Origin: Sphingorhabdus contaminans
Lineage (GTDB): Bacteria > Pseudomonadota > Alphaproteobacteria > Sphingomonadales > Sphingomonadaceae
Direction: 5' to 3'
NCBI RefSeq assembly: GCF_007280415.1
Contig: NZ_VKKU01000001.1
Location: forward strand, 558,001 to 622,000
DNA length: 64,000 nt
Shown: positions 46,105 to 52,708 of the stretch, one piece after another
Position numbering within the stretch: position 1 is the first letter of the stretch
Layout of the letters: every line of letters begins with the position of its first letter
Notes under the pieces: generated by a model
What the model was told of the DNA's origin: nothing
Database searches by the model: none
What the model saw: the letters and a program-made list of their open reading frames with translations, nothing else
Program-made: the position numbers and the translations under genes

Positions 46105-47448
46105 ATGATGGAAGCGACATCCTTTTATCGCACCATCTGGCGCTGGCATTTTTACGCTTCGCTTTTTGTGATGCCGCTTGTGCTCTTGCTCGCGACTACG
46201 GGCGCAATTTACCTGTTCAAACCGCAACTGGATCGTTGGGAGGAGCGTGCCTATTCCGGCCTGCCGACCGACGGTGCGGTGTCACCCAATGCGCAGTTGG
46301 AGGCCGTCATGACGGCCAATCCCGATGCGCAATTTCACGGCTATCGTCTGCCCGAAAGGGCGGGCGATGCTGCGGTGATCCACATCGGCCTTGCCGACGG
46401 CCGGTCCATGCGTGATGTCTATGTCTCCCCGCAGGGCAAGGTTCTGGGCAGTGTCGATCCGGAAAAGCGGATCTCGGCCACCGTGTCGCGTATCCACGGA
46501 TCGCTCTTTCTAGGGAAAGTCGGCGACTGGATCGTGGAACTGGCGGCGTGCTGGGCCATCGTCATGATCATCACCGGCCTATATATGTGGTGGCCTCGCG
46601 GGCAGGGCCTGGCAGGTGTTGTCTGGCCCCGGCTTCAACGCGGGTCGCGTGTTATGCTGCGTGATTTGCATGCGGTCACGGGGTTCTGGGTGTCAGGTCT
46701 GGCACTGGTGCTGTTGACCACAGGTTTGCCCTGGGCGAGCGTCTGGGGCGATGCATTCCGGTTGGCGCGTACCGAACTGGGTCTGGTGCAGGGGGCGCAG
46801 GATTGGAAAACAGGGGCCGCTTTGCCCCATGCCGAACATGACCATGATGCCATGATGAAGATGCAGGCCGCCGGTGTTCCGCTGGTGGCGTTGGGGGATA
46901 TGGTTCGCAAGGCCGAGGCGGAACGACTGCCGCATCCGGTCTGGGTCAAGCCGCCGGGCGCGCCCGAACGTTTCGGCCCGCCTGCACCCATGGCCTGGAC
47001 CGTCAAATCGGAGGCGCAAAACAGGCCGCTTAATCGCACCATAATGTTCGACATGGCAACAGGCGAAGAAGTATCGCGCAAGGGGTTCGCCGACAAACAT
47101 GTCATCGACCGTGCGGTGAACTATGGCATTGCCTGGCATGAAGGGCAATTGTTCGGCTGGATCAACCAGGCGATCGGCGTGCTGACCGCCGTTGCACTCA
47201 TCACCCTGACCGTCACCGGATTCATGATGTGGCGGCGGCGCAAGCCAGCGGCTTCCTTGGGCGCACCGCCACTGCCATCGGCAACCCACAAGATGCGGGG
47301 TGCCGTCATAATCCTGTTTGTGCTGGCTGTGCTGTTGCCGCTGCTGGCAGGCTCGTTGTTGCTTCTGTGGTTGTTCGACCGGCTGGTGTTGCCGCGTCTT
47401 CCGTCACTGGCGCAATGGCTCGGCCTGCGACCGGTTCAACCGGCGTAG
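46105..47448 (+). CDS. PepSY-domain membrane protein (PiuB-like)
   Basis: A 447-residue inner-membrane protein with four main spans (about 12-35, 145-165, 190-215, 350-375) and periplasmic PepSY-type regions (RIHGSLFLGKVGDWIVELAA; AWHEGQLFGWINQ). A histidine-rich HAEHDHD sits in the second periplasmic loop (near 243-249). The family works with TonB receptors, probably reducing or releasing imported iron or copper ligands. It begins 8 bases after the receptor stop. The 3' end overlaps convergent sufE by 13 bases. Confidence 0.85.
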   Translation: MMEATSFYRTIWRWHFYASLFVMPLVLLLATTGAIYLFKPQLDRWEERAYSGLPTDGAVSPNAQLEAVMTANPDAQFHGYRLPERAGDAAVIHIGLADGRSMRDVYVSPQGKVLGSVDPEKRISATVSRIHGSLFLGKVGDWIVELAACWAIVMIITGLYMWWPRGQGLAGVVWPRLQRGSRVMLRDLHAVTGFWVSGLALVLLTTGLPWASVWGDAFRLARTELGLVQGAQDWKTGAALPHAEHDHDAMMKMQAAGVPLVALGDMVRKAEAERLPHPVWVKPPGAPERFGPPAPMAWTVKSEAQNRPLNRTIMFDMATGEEVSRKGFADKHVIDRAVNYGIAWHEGQLFGWINQAIGVLTAVALITLTVTGFMMWRRRKPAASLGAPPLPSATHKMRGAVIILFVLAVLLPLLAGSLLLLWLFDRLVLPRLPSLAQWLGLRPVQPA

Positions 47449-47840
47449 CGCGCGGCAGTTTCGCGGATCAACGCGATCATATTGGGGATGCCCTGCGTCC
47501 GGTTCGAGCTTAACTGGTTTTTGAGGTCGAACGGGGCGAGGGCGCCTTCAATATCTGTTTGGCCGATCTCGGCGGCCGACTTGCCTTCGACGGTTTTCAG
47601 TACAAGCGCAATGATGCCTTTGGTGATGGCCGCATTGCTGTCGGCCAGAAAAGACAGTTTGTCCGCGTCAGTCACCGGATAGACCCAGACGCTCGCCGAA
47701 CATCCGCGCACAAGGGTCGCGTCGGTCTTGAGAGCGTCCGGCATTTCCGGCAGTTCCTTGCCGAGATCGATCAGCAAACGGTACCGGTCGTCTGCGTCCA
47801 GAAAGTCATATTCTTCAAAAATATCGTTCAGCGCGCTCAT
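47436..47840 (-). CDS. sufE: SufE-family sulfur acceptor protein
   Basis: A 134-residue SufE that takes persulfide sulfur from the cysteine desulfurase SufS for Fe-S cluster assembly. The catalytic Cys47 lies in LVRGCSASVWV, preceded by RYRLLIDLGKELP. No other suf genes are nearby. It follows the last small psp-operon gene after 27 bases on the same strand and may be transcribed with it. Confidence 0.9.
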   Translation of the reverse strand: MSALNDIFEEYDFLDADDRYRLLIDLGKELPEMPDALKTDATLVRGCSASVWVYPVTDADKLSFLADSNAAITKGIIALVLKTVEGKSAAEIGQTDIEGALAPFDLKNQLSSNRTQGIPNMIALIRETAARYAG

Positions 47841-47867: not shown

Positions 47868-48110
47868 TCAGATATCAATCCCTGCCGCAATAGCTTCCAG
47901 CTTTTTCACGCGTTCTTTCAGGTCCGCGACTTCGATCCGCGATGTGGCCGATGGTACCGGTGCATCGCTTCCTTGACGTGCAAGGTCGAGTTCGGCGTGC
48001 TTCAGCGCGATCCAGTCGCGCCAGCCGCGTAAACCCAGGGTGGAGACTATACCGACGCACAGGACGGCAAACGCACCTACGATGATATAGAAATTAGGAT
48101 CCTGTGGCAT
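47868..48110 (-). CDS. Small membrane protein with PspB-like coiled coil (psp operon)
   Basis: An 80-residue protein: one membrane span (about 8-27), a basic-amphipathic linker and a C-terminal coiled coil with LKERVKKLEAIAAG at 64-77, a shortened version of the segment shared by its upstream neighbours. It lacks the terminal E-I-E-x-L-R. Last small gene before sufE, 34 bases after the preceding family member. Confidence 0.72.
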   Translation of the reverse strand: MPQDPNFYIIVGAFAVLCVGIVSTLGLRGWRDWIALKHAELDLARQGSDAPVPSATSRIEVADLKERVKKLEAIAAGIDI

Positions 48111-48144
48111 GGTTCCTTCCTTTCCTTCCCTTTTCGCGTCCGCA

Positions 48145-48417
48145 TTAGCGGTTACGCAATTCCTCTATCTGACGGTTGAGATCTGTGGCGCTGTTGTTGT
48201 CGGTCGCGATCCGCTCAAGAACCTGGATGCGTTCCTTCAACGCGCGGATTTCTTCCTGCATTGCGCTGGTGTCGCTGTTGCCGATCATACGCTGGGTTTT
48301 GTTGCCCATCATATCTTCGTCTTCGATAATGCCGAGCTTCGCCTTTTGCTTGGTCTGGATGATCTTGCCGATCGTCACGATTGCGATGATCGCAACCACC
48401 ATTTCAAATGGGCCCAT
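48145..48417 (-). CDS. Small membrane protein with PspB-like coiled coil (psp operon)
   Basis: A 90-residue protein with a membrane span at about 5-20, an acidic/Met-rich linker (IEDEDMMGNK) and a coiled coil at 52-75 carrying LKERIQVLERIATD (60-73), then a tail ending IEELRNR. The motif resembles the C-terminal half of E. coli PspB (RERIQALESIL as recalled). Spacing is 11 bases from the upstream paralogue. Likely tethers or modulates PspA; function inferred. Confidence 0.75.
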   Translation of the reverse strand: MGPFEMVVAIIAIVTIGKIIQTKQKAKLGIIEDEDMMGNKTQRMIGNSDTSAMQEEIRALKERIQVLERIATDNNSATDLNRQIEELRNR

Positions 48418-48428
48418 TTTTTCCTCCG

Positions 48429-48725
48429 TTATCTCAAATCTGGTTTGGGTTCGAGTTGCCGTGGCGGCAAGCTGCGTAGCTCTTCAATTTCTTTCGCGAT
48501 GCTGTAGCCCTGATCGGTAATGATCCGCTCCAGTACGGCGACGCGCTCTTCCAACACGGCTTGTTTGCTCGCATATTGGGCTGCCTTTTCCGCGATCATA
48601 TCTGCTTCCATGGCCATCCGCTGCTCCTTCAGCTTGAACCAGGGACGGACAAACACGCCGCCGAATATCGCCAATAGTCCGCAGGATATCCCTAGGATTG
48701 GAATGAGGAGGGGGTTGATTTCCAT
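48429..48725 (-). CDS. Small membrane protein with PspB-like coiled coil (psp operon)
   Basis: A 98-residue protein with a strong membrane span (about 7-27), a long amphipathic helix (KLKEQRMAMEADMIAEKAAQ, 31-50) and LEERVAVLERIITD at 58-71 followed by AKEIEELR. The C-terminus adds a proline-rich tail (LPPRQLEPKPDLR) missing from the other copies. It lies 12 bases downstream of the next paralogue. No enzyme motif is present. Confidence 0.75.
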   Translation of the reverse strand: MEINPLLIPILGISCGLLAIFGGVFVRPWFKLKEQRMAMEADMIAEKAAQYASKQAVLEERVAVLERIITDQGYSIAKEIEELRSLPPRQLEPKPDLR

Positions 48726-48737
48726 AATTGTTACCTC

Positions 48738-49064
48738 TTAATTTGACGGGCCGCGAAGGGCTTCGATTTCGGCCGTCAGGCGGTGGCTGTCGTCGACTAC
48801 AATCTTTTCGATGTTGGCGAGGCGATCTTTCACCGATCCGAGTTCAGCGCGCAGTTGGGCATTTTCCTGGCTCAGCAGGCGCACGCGTTCGACAGCCTCC
48901 TGGTCATTTTTCGGATATACTGCCTGGCCCCAGGCACCGTCGAGCGGATAGCCGTTCTTGATACGCAACCAGGTGGTTATGACCCATCCTGCTGTCCCTA
49001 CCACGGTGATGAGCGTGATGGGCATTGCCAAGCGCATCAATCCTTCGACCAAAGTTGGATCCAT
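48738..49064 (-). CDS. Small membrane protein with PspB-like coiled coil (psp operon)
   Basis: A 108-residue protein: membrane span (about 13-33), then WLRIKNGYPLDGAWG at 32-46, a coiled coil at 60-92 with VKDRLANIEKIVVD (78-91), and AEIEALR near the end. The TAGW...W[LI]R...GYPL...WG block is shared with the neighbouring upstream gene (49086-49376), so these two are the closest paralogues in the array and probably a tandem duplication. AGAGGAATTAGTC precedes the ATG. Confidence 0.76.
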   Translation of the reverse strand: MDPTLVEGLMRLAMPITLITVVGTAGWVITTWLRIKNGYPLDGAWGQAVYPKNDQEAVERVRLLSQENAQLRAELGSVKDRLANIEKIVVDDSHRLTAEIEALRGPSN

Positions 49065-49085
49065 GACTAATTCCTCTCTTCGCGC

Positions 49086-49376
49086 TTAACGCAGCTTTTC
49101 AATTTCTTCCGAAAGGCGGCCGGCCTTATCGGTGACAATACGTTCCAGAACCGCAATGCGTTCTTCCAGATTGCCGATCTTGCCGTTCAGCGATTCATTC
49201 TCGTTGGTCAGCAGGGTGATTTTACGTTCGGCATCCACATCAACCTTGGGCGTCGTGCCACCCCACTCGTTTTCGAGTGGGTATCCGTGACGTGCCCGGA
49301 TCCAGTTGTTGATAATCCATCCAGCGGTGCAGATCAGAACGATCGCAACGATAAATGAAGACCCTCCAATGCTCAT
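49086..49376 (-). CDS. Small membrane protein with PspB-like coiled coil (psp operon)
   Basis: A 96-residue protein: membrane span (about 6-25), WIRARHGYPLENEWGG at 25-40, a coiled coil at 48-84 with LEERIAVLERIVTD (70-83), and the terminal EEIEKLR. ATG at 49376 overlaps the stop of the upstream 52-residue gene (ATGA), which settles the start over the longer frame to 49391. Close paralogue of the next gene downstream. Function inferred only from the PspB-like tail and the operon. Confidence 0.76.
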   Translation of the reverse strand: MSIGGSSFIVAIVLICTAGWIINNWIRARHGYPLENEWGGTTPKVDVDAERKITLLTNENESLNGKIGNLEERIAVLERIVTDKAGRLSEEIEKLR

Positions 49377-49531
49377 GCTATGTCCTTCCACGGTAGACGG
49401 CGGGTAACAGGTTTGATTTCGGAATGGCGGTAATCAACACGCCAGTTTTGCCGGTTTGCATTCCGCTTTTTCTGGGCGAAGTGCCGGTAAACAAACCAGG
49501 CAATCAGGCCGAGAACGATCAGGGTGAACAT
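49373..49531 (-). CDS. 52-residue basic single-span membrane protein (psp operon)
   Basis: A very short gene. GGAGGAAAATA gives a strong ribosome site before ATG 49531. The product is a hydrophobic span at residues 2-15 (FTLIVLGLIAWFVY) followed by a strongly basic tail (HFAQKKRNANRQNWRV, then KPVTRRLPWKDIA). It lacks the coiled coil of its neighbours. The TGA overlaps the next gene's ATG (ATGA), so the two are translationally coupled. The good ribosome site and coupling argue that it is real. Confidence 0.7.
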   Translation of the reverse strand: MFTLIVLGLIAWFVYRHFAQKKRNANRQNWRVDYRHSEIKPVTRRLPWKDIA

Positions 49532-49554
49532 TATTTTCCTCCTTTGCGCGCCGC

Positions 49555-49827
49555 TTAACGCAGGCGTTCGAGCTCTTGATTCAGGCTCAAATGGTTGTCT
49601 GTCGTGATGCGTTCCATCACCGAAAGGCGCTCTTCCAGCCGGAGCATCTGGCCCCGCATCATTTCATTTTCGTTGATCAACAACTCGGTTTGACGGCTTG
49701 GCGCGATCCCTTCCGATTTGAGGGCTGCTTTGACCTTGCGTCGGCCGTACCACTGTATTGTCAATGTGCAGATGGTTCCGATCCCCATTCCAAAGAATGT
49801 TGTCAGAAAAAATGCATCGGCTTCCAT
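49555..49827 (-). CDS. Small membrane protein with PspB-like coiled coil (psp operon)
   Basis: A 90-residue protein with a membrane span (about 5-25), a basic stop-transfer YGRRKVKAALK and a coiled coil at 47-78 holding LEERLSVMERITTD (64-77), ending QELERLR. First of the extra small genes after pspC, 25 bases downstream. The PspB-like arrangement (short N-terminal span, cytoplasmic coiled coil) suggests interaction with PspA or PspC at the inner membrane. Confidence 0.76.
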   Translation of the reverse strand: MEADAFFLTTFFGMGIGTICTLTIQWYGRRKVKAALKSEGIAPSRQTELLINENEMMRGQMLRLEERLSVMERITTDNHLSLNQELERLR

Positions 49828-49852
49828 TATCTATTCCCTCCCAAAATCCGGC

Positions 49853-50233
49853 TTAGCGCAGGCTTTCGATTTCGTCGGCGAGCTGCTTGTTGTTGCTCAC
49901 ATAATAGAGCTCGACGTCAGCAAGGCGGTTGTCGATTTCGCGGAAGCGCGAACGGATGTCGCGGGTCGTGCGGGCAGGGGACTGGCGTACGCCCTGCCAG
50001 AACTTCTGGTCTTCATTGTCGACATAAAGATGGATCGGCTTTTTGTTTGCAAACCATGCTGCGCCGAAATAGGCGATCAGGGTCCAGGGAAAGCCGCCGG
50101 CCAGGGTCAGGATGACGGCGCCTAAACGGACCCAGAGAACGTCAACACCTGTATAGTCCGAGATCCCTGCGCATACGCCCTTCCATTTGGCATTTTGCTT
50201 GTCGAGATAAAATTGGGTGTGTTTGCTGCTCAT
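49853..50233 (-). CDS. pspC: Phage shock protein C, envelope stress sensor
   Basis: A 126-residue PspC: the conserved domain at 8-65 has KWKGVCAGISDYTGVDVLWVR and a membrane span (about 36-62). PspC senses inner-membrane stress and recruits PspA away from PspF. Unusually, the C-terminus (97-126, FREIDNRLADVELYYV through DEIESLR) resembles the terminal coiled coil of the small proteins encoded downstream. ATG at 50233 is one base after the pspB stop; a longer frame to 50290 lies inside pspB. Confidence 0.88.
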   Translation of the reverse strand: MSSKHTQFYLDKQNAKWKGVCAGISDYTGVDVLWVRLGAVILTLAGGFPWTLIAYFGAAWFANKKPIHLYVDNEDQKFWQGVRQSPARTTRDIRSRFREIDNRLADVELYYVSNNKQLADEIESLR

Positions 50234-50234
50234 C

Positions 50235-50522
50235 TCAACGGTTCCTTTCCAGCCGGCGAATATTTTCTGCGGTATAATCTTCTGTTTCATGGGTAAGGCG
50301 ACGCGGCGAGAAAGATGGATTGTCCTGGCTTACAAGACGTTCCACCGTGTCCATGCGATCTTCGAGGCGGCGTGCCAGTTCGTACATTTCGGCCAGCATC
50401 CGCTCATCATCGTTGGTAAGCGTGGCTGCTGTTTTCCATTTGGTGACATGGTGCAGGATCAACCAAGGGAGACCCAGAAAGATAGTTGGTATGACAACGA
50501 GGGCAATTGCTGCGTCTTCCAT
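50235..50522 (-). CDS. pspB: Phage shock protein B
   Basis: A 95-residue PspB with a membrane span (about 6-26) and a cytoplasmic coiled coil containing LARRLEDRMDTVERLVSQDNP at 49-69, as in classical PspB. PspB partners PspC in stress signalling to PspA. It is longer than the roughly 75-residue E. coli protein, with an extra charged C-terminus. It starts 6 bases after pspA on the same strand. Confidence 0.85.
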   Translation of the reverse strand: MEDAAIALVVIPTIFLGLPWLILHHVTKWKTAATLTNDDERMLAEMYELARRLEDRMDTVERLVSQDNPSFSPRRLTHETEDYTAENIRRLERNR

Positions 50523-50528
50523 GGGGGA

Positions 50529-51212
50529 TTAACCTTCCTTCTTCGATTCTTGCTTCATGGCCTTTTTCATTTCCTCGAGCTCCGCATCGACAACGTCGAA
50601 GGATTCAAGGGCGGCAATCTCGTCACCAAGGGTGCGTGGCGCATCATTTCCGATGGCAAGGGCATCTGCGTAACCCTGGGCTTCATCCACGCGGCGTTCC
50701 AGAACGTCGAAGCGTGAAAAGGCTTCGCGGACCTTGTCGCCATTGTACATGGTGCGCAGCTTGACCTGATTTTCCGCGCTTTCGAGGCGCGTCATCAGCG
50801 CATTCTGACGGCTGCGGGCATCGGCCAGCTTCTTCTGCAGCTTGTGGATGTCCTGCTCCGATGCCTTCAGGGCGTCGTTGAGTACATCGACTTCAGCGGT
50901 CAGCTGGTCCTTCATATCGGTCGCCTTGCGCTTTTCGAGCAATGCCGCCTTGGCGAGGTCTTCACGTCCCTTCGACAGCGCGAGATGCGCCTTGTCCGTC
51001 CAATCCGCCTCGAGAGTGTTCAGCTTGTCGATATGGCGACGCAGTTCTTTCTGGTCGGCGATCGTGCGCGCGGCAGAGGCGCGGACTTCGACAAGAGTTT
51101 CCTCCATTTCGAGGATGATCATACGGATCATCTTTGCCGGGTCTTGCGACTTGTCGAGCAAGTCGGTGACATTGGCGGCGATGATGTCGCGGGTTCGTGA
51201 AAAAATGCCCAT
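50529..51212 (-). CDS. pspA: Phage shock protein A (PspA/IM30 family)
   Basis: A 227-residue all-helical membrane-remodelling protein. The amphipathic N-terminal helix MGIFSRTRDIIAANVTDLLDK precedes the DPAKMIRMIILEMEETLVEVRA block, then long coiled-coil helices to about 185 and a C-terminal helix. PspA binds stressed inner membrane and, when idle, inhibits PspF. ATG at 51212 is the family start, preceded by CCGGAGTTACCCT; the frame to 51404 is not used. A hairpin lies just upstream. Confidence 0.94.
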   Translation of the reverse strand: MGIFSRTRDIIAANVTDLLDKSQDPAKMIRMIILEMEETLVEVRASAARTIADQKELRRHIDKLNTLEADWTDKAHLALSKGREDLAKAALLEKRKATDMKDQLTAEVDVLNDALKASEQDIHKLQKKLADARSRQNALMTRLESAENQVKLRTMYNGDKVREAFSRFDVLERRVDEAQGYADALAIGNDAPRTLGDEIAALESFDVVDAELEEMKKAMKQESKKEG

Positions 51213-51312: not shown

Positions 51313-51501
51313 TCAGGCGAGATAGCTGACAACGATAGGCCGTTGGGAGTGGGTGTATGCATTGACCTGGTTATCTTCCTGGTGATTGAACACCGAAATC
51401 GCATAGCTGGTGAAGATCATGGACATGGACAAGGCCACGGCCACCCAGAGACGGCTTTCGCTTTCTTTGAAGCTTTCCTGTGCTTTGTGTTCGGTGTTCA
51501 T
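51313..51501 (-). CDS. 62-residue single-span membrane protein, first gene of the psp operon
   Basis: A short gene whose ATG is preceded by AGGGAAGACCAAA. The product has a charged N-terminus (NTEHKAQESFKESESR), a membrane span at about 18-38 and a short polar, probably periplasmic, C-terminus. It lies between the sigma-54 promoter and pspA and so should be strongly induced by PspF. Not recognised; it lacks the coiled coil of the downstream small proteins. Confidence 0.68.
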   Translation of the reverse strand: MNTEHKAQESFKESESRLWVAVALSMSMIFTSYAISVFNHQEDNQVNAYTHSQRPIVVSYLA

Positions 51502-51553: not shown

Positions 51554-51570
51554 TTGCAGGGAGCGTGCCA
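51554..51570 (-). promoter_or_regulatory. Sigma-54 promoter of the psp operon
   Basis: On the minus strand the sequence is TGGCACGCTCCCTGCAA, matching the recalled consensus TGGCACG-N4-TTGCA with the invariant GG and GC at correct spacing and one deviation. It lies 53 bases upstream of the 62-residue gene and 100 bases from divergent pspF, an enhancer-binding activator of sigma-54 RNA polymerase. Confidence 0.85.
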
Positions 51571-51670: not shown

Positions 51671-52708
51671 ATGGAGCGTGATAGCCATCAATTTATCGGG
51701 CAGTCGTCCGCCTTTCTGGACGCGGTGGAGCGTGCCAGCCGGGCTGCGCCGCTGAACCGGCCTGTCCTTGTGGTTGGTGAGCGCGGGACGGGTAAGGAAT
51801 TGATCGCCGAACGTCTGCACCGCCTCAGCTCGCGCTGGGACGGCCCGCTGGTGACCATGAACTGCGCGGCGTTGCCGGAGACTCTGATCGAGGCGGAGCT
51901 GTTCGGGCATGAGGCAGGGGCCTTTACCGGTGCCACTCGCGCCCGCGAGGGGCGCTTTGAAGAGGCGGATGGCGGGACCCTGTTCCTGGACGAGCTCGGG
52001 ACGCTGAGCATGGGCGCGCAGGAAAGGTTGCTGCGCGCGGTCGAATATGGCGAGGTTACCCGCATCGGTTCCTCGCGCCCCGTCCGCGTCGATGTGCGCA
52101 TCGTGGCGGCGACAAACGAGCATCTGCCTAACATGGTCGAGGCGGGGAAATTCAGGGCCGACCTGCTGGACCGGCTCTGCTTCGAAGTCGTGACCTTGCC
52201 CCCCTTGCGGGTGCGGGAGGGCGATGTGGAGGTACTGTCCGACTATTTCGGCCGGCGCATGGCGGCGGAGCTGGGCTGGGATGGCTGGCCGGGATTTGGT
52301 GAGGTGGCGCGGCGGGCGATGGAGAATTATCTGTGGCCGGGCAATGTGCGCGAGCTGCGCAATGTTGTCGAACGCGCGGTCTATCGCTGGGCCGACCCCA
52401 GCCAGCCTGTCGACTATATCCAGTTCGATCCGTTCGAAAGTCCGTGGCGCGTGGGCATCGCCGCCGCCGCGCCGACCAATGTGCCGACCAGCAGGGACAA
52501 GGAAACCGCCGAACCCCGCTATTCCACAGACCTCAGCCAGTTGGTCGACGTCACCGATTTCCGGGAAGCGACCGAAAAATATGAAAAGGCGGTGCTGGAA
52601 CAGGCGCTCGCCAAATGCCGCTATAACCAGCGCCAGACCGCAAAGGCGCTCAACCTCAGCTATGACCAGCTACGGCACACGCTGAAAAAACACGACCTGC
52701 TGAATTAA
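51671..52708 (+). CDS. pspF: Psp operon transcriptional activator PspF
   Basis: A 345-residue bacterial enhancer-binding protein. The AAA+ domain begins at residue 1 with no receiver. Walker A is GERGTGKELIAERLH, the sigma-54-contacting loop is GAFTGA (in GHEAGAFTGATRA), and Walker B is GGTLFLDELG. A Fis-type helix-turn-helix closes the C-terminus (NQRQTAKALNLSYDQLRHTLKK). Absence of an input domain fits PspF, which is inhibited by PspA. ATG at 51671 is the family-length start; the frame opens at 51635. It is divergent from the operon it activates. Confidence 0.92.
   Translation: MERDSHQFIGQSSAFLDAVERASRAAPLNRPVLVVGERGTGKELIAERLHRLSSRWDGPLVTMNCAALPETLIEAELFGHEAGAFTGATRAREGRFEEADGGTLFLDELGTLSMGAQERLLRAVEYGEVTRIGSSRPVRVDVRIVAATNEHLPNMVEAGKFRADLLDRLCFEVVTLPPLRVREGDVEVLSDYFGRRMAAELGWDGWPGFGEVARRAMENYLWPGNVRELRNVVERAVYRWADPSQPVDYIQFDPFESPWRVGIAAAAPTNVPTSRDKETAEPRYSTDLSQLVDVTDFREATEKYEKAVLEQALAKCRYNQRQTAKALNLSYDQLRHTLKKHDLLN

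Follow-up and report, generated by a model that had tools for sequence, protein, structure and literature searches.

The phage-shock-protein (psp) operon of Sphingorhabdus contaminans (Sphingomonadales; Sphingomonadaceae) raises the question of why pspA, pspB, and pspC are followed by seven further small membrane-protein genes, and how these proteins relate to the Psp response. The operon lies in a 64,000-nucleotide stretch of contig NZ_VKKU01000001.1 (assembly GCF_007280415.1, positions 558,001 to 622,000), hereafter the window, whose coordinates are used below. Five of the seven (g4 and g6–g9, the array members) form one homologous family, of which g10 is a shorter relative; g5 is a separate protein without detectable relation to this family. 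The array proteins carry a tail homologous to those that end PspB and PspC; its first helix (helix 1) corresponds to both, its EIExLR box to PspC alone. We give a probability of about 0.5 to the reading that several membrane anchors present a common docking tail of the PspB/PspC type to one PspA. The genome carries only one PspA match at an expectation value (E) ≤ 1e-5. On the minus strand, the genes follow one another in the order listed here; E-values are from a search of the S. contaminans genome with the A1 profile, which was built from loci of the window's family.

pspA, 50529–51212, minus strand: 227 amino acids (aa) from the ATG at 51212; TIGR02977, 265.8 bits (cut-off 242.95)
pspB, 50235–50522, minus strand: 95 aa; TIGR02976, 84.8 bits (cut-off 51.7); Pfam PspB, 70.5 bits
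pspC, 49853–50233, minus strand: 126 aa, tail ending in DEIESLR; TIGR02978, 118.9 bits (cut-off 104)
g4, 49555–49827, minus strand: tailed membrane protein of 90 aa, subfamily D; E 1.4e-20
g5, 49373–49531, minus strand: single-span protein of 52 aa without the tail
g6, 49086–49376, minus strand: tailed membrane protein of 96 aa, subfamily A2; E 1.3e-26
g7, 48738–49064, minus strand: tailed membrane protein of 108 aa, subfamily A1; E 2.0e-22
g8, 48429–48725, minus strand: tailed membrane protein of 98 aa, subfamily B; E 4.3e-22
g9, 48145–48417, minus strand: tailed membrane protein of 90 aa, subfamily C; E 4.4e-24
g10, 47868–48110, minus strand: short-tailed relative of 80 aa with helix 1 only; hhalign to the array family, 94.6%

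The proteins encoded by pspA, pspB, and pspC each exceed the curated NCBIfam cut-offs, and the order pspABC was found in all 79 loci that have all three genes; together with a divergent pspF and a σ54-like site recognized by pattern and conservation (see below), this identifies the locus as a psp operon. From pspC on, the intergenic gaps measure 25, 23, −4, 21, 12, 11, and 34 bases, and these gaps and the coordinates bear out the description in an earlier model-made reading of the same DNA (the first-pass annotation) of seven small same-strand membrane-protein genes at most 34 bases apart. The span given there for the operon, 47868–50522, does reach from g10 to pspB, but it leaves pspA outside and misses a leader gene (g0) further upstream.

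Profiles grown from g4, g6, g7, g8, and g9 all converged on 210–212 of 312 proteins; that five separate seeds arrive at the same set indicates that the array members are homologous, and because the sets are nearly identical these convergent profiles are unusable for subfamily labels. Over 8,359 open reading frames (ORFs) of the fetched loci, profile E-values were bimodal among the best 90 of 101 matches, with array members mostly at E < 1e-12 and a second group at about 1e-4 to 1e-3 that contained PspC, PspB, and g10, plus a few overlapping or out-of-frame ORFs. In the A1 profile search of the S. contaminans genome, the five array proteins (E ≤ 1.4e-20) were followed by one unlinked protein (E = 2.3e-12) and then by weak matches to g10, PspC, PspB, and two others (E from 0.004 to 0.135).

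Profile–profile comparison of the array family with hhalign (local alignment mode) gave 82% for sphingomonad PspC, 80% for PspB, and 95% for g10, and only 0.9% for PspA and 0.4% for SufE as controls; reversed profiles of PspB, PspC, PspA, g10, and the array itself gave 0.1–2.1%, as compared to 80–95% for the true ones. The coiled-coil similarity proposed in the first-pass annotation thus survives profile comparison, and the 52-residue g5, which had been set apart there, does stand alone (7.3% to the array). The alignment with the array spans 21 columns for PspB, covering just helix 1, and 34 columns for PspC, which take in helix 1, the turn, and the EIExLR box; the invariant PspC tail residues R103, E108, I122, L125, and R126 show the same spacing as the conserved R, E, I, L, and R of the array. 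A box of the EIExLR type is present in five of the six tailed proteins, at the very end of g4 and g6, near the end of g7 and g9, and internally in g8, 14 residues before the protein end; g10 has helix 1 and no such box. The proposal of six PspB-like tailed proteins was therefore right in that the proteins are true paralogues built like PspB, but g10 shares helix 1 only and the last box is that of PspC; likewise, the E[I/L]ExLR ending ascribed to PspC and four of the tailed proteins is real, but the box is carried by five of them.

Single-protein scans pointed to the same two families at much lower scores. Among 28 array members scanned against NCBIfam at E ≤ 0.1, the PspB and PspC models were each matched by 16 and were the commonest of all models, with a best single E of 9.1e-6 (PspB model). 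Matches of the window's proteins to TIGR02978 covered its last positions (87–121 for g4 and g6, 83–121 for g8, 66–121 for g7, and 50–121 for g9), with E from 0.0016 to 0.1 (0.0016 for g7 and 0.015 for g4). Against E. coli proteins, the array profile scored 23.4 bits for PspB and 4.3 bits for PspC, the latter over residues 87–112, and showed no similarity to PspD (−1.2 bits). By curated standards g4–g10 are neither PspB nor PspC: none reaches the PspB cut-off of TIGR02976 (the best, g6, scores 12.6 bits as compared to 51.7), none matches the PspC domain (PF04024) at E ≤ 10, and Pfam scans of the single proteins yielded either no match or sub-threshold matches to generically named families. A structure search with the array profile met only other helical proteins (best E = 0.0028) and no solved structure of a relative, and a search with PspC returned potassium-channel chains only.

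Lysines and arginines are more numerous after the span than before it in 234 of 240 array members, which by the positive-inside rule would place the tail in the cytoplasm; from this charge pattern, array proteins are predicted to be single-span proteins with the N-terminus outside. The array thus has a PspB-like layout (an N-terminal span and then a cytoplasmic coiled coil with a conserved helix), with topology assigned by the charge rule only. An AlphaFold model of g6 contains helices at residues 5–30 and 47–95 (predicted local distance difference test score, pLDDT, 70.5), and the model of PspC (pLDDT 56.0) represents the tail as two helices, 90–112 and 116–125.

Span and tail evolve differently in these proteins. 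Span and tail were split with a tail motif that failed to match 3 of 243 proteins, leaving 240. Among 290 pairs of paralogues from the same locus, the 14-residue tail core was 0.60 identical, a value raised by the choice of the core through the motif, and the span was 0.22 identical as compared to 0.21 after shuffling, a result independent of the motif choice; some spans in the window are more alike than average (g6/g9, 0.47; g6/g7, 0.37). Between loci, span identity was 0.34–0.49 within five named subfamilies, which were assigned with hand-made regular expressions, and 23% among the 14 of 240 proteins left unclassified. Because spans are unlike between paralogues and kept within subfamilies, the span is subfamily-specific and the tail common. 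One protein has exchanged these parts: in the last tailed protein of Sphingorhabdus profundilacus (L011:7493–7750, plus strand), the span most resembles type B proteins of other loci (79%) and the tail most resembles type C (87.5%), so that this protein is a natural chimera of the two subfamilies. A further proposal, which we hold tentatively and below even odds, is that these proteins form a modular sensor repertoire, in which one PspA and one PspF would read several sensors with a common, interchangeable tail and with spans that have been diversified, exchanged, and kept per subfamily.

The genes are under purifying selection wherever an orthologue was at hand, that is, for all but g4. Against orthologues in the related loci L010 and L012, the ratio of nonsynonymous to synonymous substitution rates (Ka/Ks) was 0.01–0.14 for the psp genes and the small genes except g4, 0.01–0.13 for g5–g10 where Ks was finite, and 0.01–0.12 for g6–g10 alone; these values are rough, with Ks > 1 in several comparisons. 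For g5, Ka/Ks was 0.13–0.14 against L010 and the S. profundilacus locus (L011), and the comparison with L012 was saturated. As compared to L010, g8 (97% identical; Ka/Ks 0.01) and g10 are conserved as much as pspA and pspC; g8 and g9 of L011 are more diverged (identity 0.57 and 0.51; Ka/Ks 0.18 and 0.32). The g4 gene was left out because the compared loci offer only a 96-aa paralogue of about 42% identity. Its absence from L010–L012 shows how copy number varies between close relatives, as would be expected if the array consisted of neutral, decaying tandem duplicates of pspB; the low Ka/Ks of g6–g10 and the retention of subfamilies across genera make this explanation very improbable.

The first-pass annotation regarded the PspB-like proteins as a local family, a view that the distribution across genomes contradicts: the array is near-universal in the window's family. 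At E ≤ 1e-5, a profile search across 196 genomes of Sphingomonadales matched 113 of 113 genomes of the window's family, with three or more members in 106, a mean of 4.06, and between one and seven copies per genome (the window holds five), and 56 of the 83 genomes of other families, with one match in 47 and two in nine; the remaining 27 had none. As the A1 profile comes from the window's family, counts elsewhere may be low. The class sample yielded an array match at E ≤ 1e-4 in eight of 289 genomes, four of them of the window's family (PspC at E ≤ 1e-10 in 27 of 289), and in the phylum sample 22 of 249 genomes were matched, including ten from the window's family. Class-sample hits in G376 and G438 are true tail proteins; two other hits outside the window's family were rejected as such, one being PspC itself (G229) and one lying inside a 441-aa protein (G383).

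At the level of loci, a PspC search provided 80 named loci (the best of 119), and those whose titles give the organism are all sphingomonadal. Array genes are placed behind pspC in 78 of these 80, with two or more in 73; in the two array-less loci, the contigs end in pspC or about 330 bases after it. A counterpart of g10 was matched in 76 of 81 loci, the subfamily of g4 (D) is present in six other loci, and relatives of g5 occur in 17 other loci (18 of 81 in all), always just before or overlapping an A2 gene. The variation from one to seven copies, along with the tail homology to PspB and PspC, would fit tails that act as decoys or buffers, binding the PspB and PspC tails or PspA so that copy number tunes sensitivity and sets an induction threshold (negative regulation). 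Conserved, distinct spans and subfamilies kept across genera would be needless in a pure buffer, and we consider this role unlikely.

Outside the window's family, tail relatives mostly lie away from psp genes, suggesting that the tail may also function outside Psp. Among 20 regions read outside the window's family, 19 were psp loci; one tail gene follows pspC in three of these (all of family f8), and none does so in the stretch read in the other 16; in the distant genome G438, a tail gene is located between pspB and pspC (L097). Of the 56 other-family genomes with a match, 27 were searched for the position of the copy, which was away from psp in 26; three genomes (G015, G027, and G054) have both psp-linked and distant copies, and one (G072) has a psp-linked copy only. 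Subfamily profiles place 24 of these 27 relatives nearest to type C (g9), and single best pairwise hits divide them among B (10), C (9), and A2 (8); g9 as the founder type is thus backed by the profiles and not borne out by the pairwise hits. A history in which a free-standing small gene, perhaps g9-like, was copied behind pspC and then expanded in the window's family is plausible and weakly supported.

These distant copies, and the lack of psp genes in the roughly 1.5 kb flanking the copy on either side (G376, G676, and eight genomes of other classes), would also be expected if a free-standing family of small coiled-coil membrane proteins had been captured behind pspC and had expanded for reasons unrelated to Psp. 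That the array lies outside Psp function altogether nevertheless seems quite improbable, given the tail homology specifically to PspB and PspC, the position after pspC in all but two of the 80 named loci, the shared σ54-like site, and the tail gene between pspB and pspC in so distant a genome as G438.

Several other relatives of the tail or of PspC were observed. The eight free-standing tailed relatives in genomes of other classes are found in L151–L158. In five loci of family f8 (L184, L187, L200, L204, and L209), the distant tail gene is located directly behind a gene for an rpoD-type σ70 factor, and in two others (L171:4540–4776 and L172:4224–4466, plus strand) pspC and the single tail gene are separated by a small additional gene for a PspC domain (78 and 80 aa). 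Outside the window, the S. contaminans genome encodes a 123-aa protein with the array tail and no obvious span (G000:C1:1325978–1326346; L112:1474–1845, minus strand), which is the unlinked match at E = 2.3e-12; its first part is zinc-ribbon-like (Pfam DUF6487, 18.9 bits, below the cut-off of 24), and among 59 genomes of the family 11 others were matched, ten over the tail part only and one over the first part only. The same genome has a second PspC-domain match without the tail (G000:C1:1176676–1176864, L002; E = 5.6e-14), with one TGA inside the alignment; two or three PspC matches were found in many genomes of the window's family.

Upstream of pspA, three features bear on how the genes may be expressed.

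pspF, 51671–52708, plus strand: divergent σ54 enhancer-binding activator, named by likeness; ATG at 51671 (listed ORF start, 51635)
σ54 −24/−12-like site TGGCACGCTCCCTGC, 51556–51570, minus strand: one mismatch to TGGCACN5TTGC
g0, 51313–51501, minus strand: single-span leader ORF of 62 aa between the σ54-like site and pspA

In all 77 loci that yielded a pspF match, the best one was on the strand opposite pspC. Allowing two mismatches at most, the σ54 pattern matched 111 times in the window as compared to 91.9 expected; as the pattern is common by chance, the case for the site rests on position and conservation. Of 80 loci (79 named loci and the window), 55 have the same form 5′ of pspA; these loci are related and thus not independent events; single-base shuffles of the same stretches over 200 rounds gave a mean of 0.93 and a maximum of five loci. 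The strict pattern is missing in 25 of the 80, many of them Sphingomonas, and a looser pattern was matched in two of these. The leader protein g0 ends in RPIVVSYLA, has homologues at the same position in near relatives, and shows a Ka/Ks of 0.04–0.15; to go by gene numbering only, it is possibly a counterpart of Zymomonas ZMO1062. At the other end of the operon, sufE (47436–47840, minus strand) is located 27 bases beyond g10; because 66 of the 73 loci in which both genes were identified have them on one strand and at most 300 bases apart, sufE may be read from the psp transcript. A scan for terminators and σ70 promoters was near chance level, and no minus-strand terminator was listed.

The predicted production of the array with PspA from one σ54 promoter, and the presence of a single PspA against many tails, would suit effectors: array proteins could serve as additional anchors, holding the PspA scaffold to the membrane or adjusting it after the response has been switched on, with spans that differ only to suit packing against different lipids or proteins. 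In PMC5596341, the PspBC complex is given both a regulatory and a protective role. Span conservation per subfamily (0.34–0.49 as compared to 0.21 shuffled) suggests partners of their own, beyond the needs of a generic anchor, and we give the effector role a fairly low probability.

For the favored reading of several anchors and one docking tail, the following sequence of events can be envisaged. The membrane-sensor part of the psp operon would have been multiplied, and PspF with σ54 would switch on the whole set together. Array tails might associate with one another or with those of PspB and PspC; in the stressed state they would dock PspA, by analogy with the PspC tail of Yersinia, which binds PspA in the on state. 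The differing spans would recognize different membrane states or partners, such that one PspA and one PspF could be controlled, or PspA recruited, from several inputs. Consistent with docking through the tail, an E. coli PspC zipper mutant loses PspA binding, according to the available passages of PMC3068692. Several points weigh against this reading. The single NCBIfam scores of g4–g10 are far under the curated cut-offs, and unrelated models do equally well or better for g8 (blaBOR, 0.059) and g9 (HpnN, 0.0018). The array profile matches E. coli PspC weakly, the stretch matched (87–112) overlaps the PspC zipper (77–98) only in part, and the same passages of PMC3068692 place the zipper region in the periplasm. 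The structure models are weak single-chain models (pLDDT 70.5 and 56.0), and the span identities within subfamilies are raised by the inclusion of closely related loci. Finally, a tail relative lies away from psp not only in 26 of the 27 other-family genomes but also in 10 of 11 further genomes read from other orders or classes.

Proteins that occur naturally with a constant tail and varied spans are a ready-made test of what sensors of the PspB/PspC type detect, and they connect small unnamed membrane proteins, encoded across a large group of environmental bacteria, with an established repair system; if the modular repertoire were true, a whole bacterial family would sense several distinct membrane states through one response.

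With its divergent pspF, σ54-like site, and pspA-pspB-pspC order, the locus resembles the classical pspABC(D) operon of E. coli and Yersinia; however, while in E. coli pspC is followed by pspD and pspE and the array is absent, the window has seven extra small membrane-protein genes and a leader before pspA. Array proteins are similar to PspB (TIGR02976, PF06667) in having an N-terminal span followed by a cytoplasmic coiled coil, as predicted, with a matching helix 1, but differ from the PspB of the window in the EIExLR box; they are similar to the C-terminal tail of PspC in helix 1, turn, box, and equally spaced conserved residues, but g4–g10 do not have the PspC domain (PF04024) ahead of the tail. 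In Zymomonas mobilis, pspA, pspB, and pspC were raised under ethanol, with ZMO1062 listed among them as a hypothetical gene (PMC3495753), and ZMO1062–ZMO1065 were raised in xylose (PMC8645129); in the passages available from these papers, no array genes are mentioned for this psp set, unlike that of the window. Searches of open-licence literature, in which most papers were judged by their listing, turned up no description of the array. In the passages available from Popp et al. 2022 (PMC9239133), paralogues of PspA and of PspC are described, and no such array. Ravi et al. 2024 (PMC11237479), in the main-text passages available, mention PspC fused to a divergent PspB and "PspB duplicates" in psp operons, the latter in a single clause that cites accession AOL22920.1; subfamilies, copy numbers, and span–tail modularity are not given in those passages, and the words Sphingo and Erythrobacter are absent from the main text. 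As extra PspB-related genes in a psp operon, these duplicates are, as far as those passages tell, of the same kind as the array.

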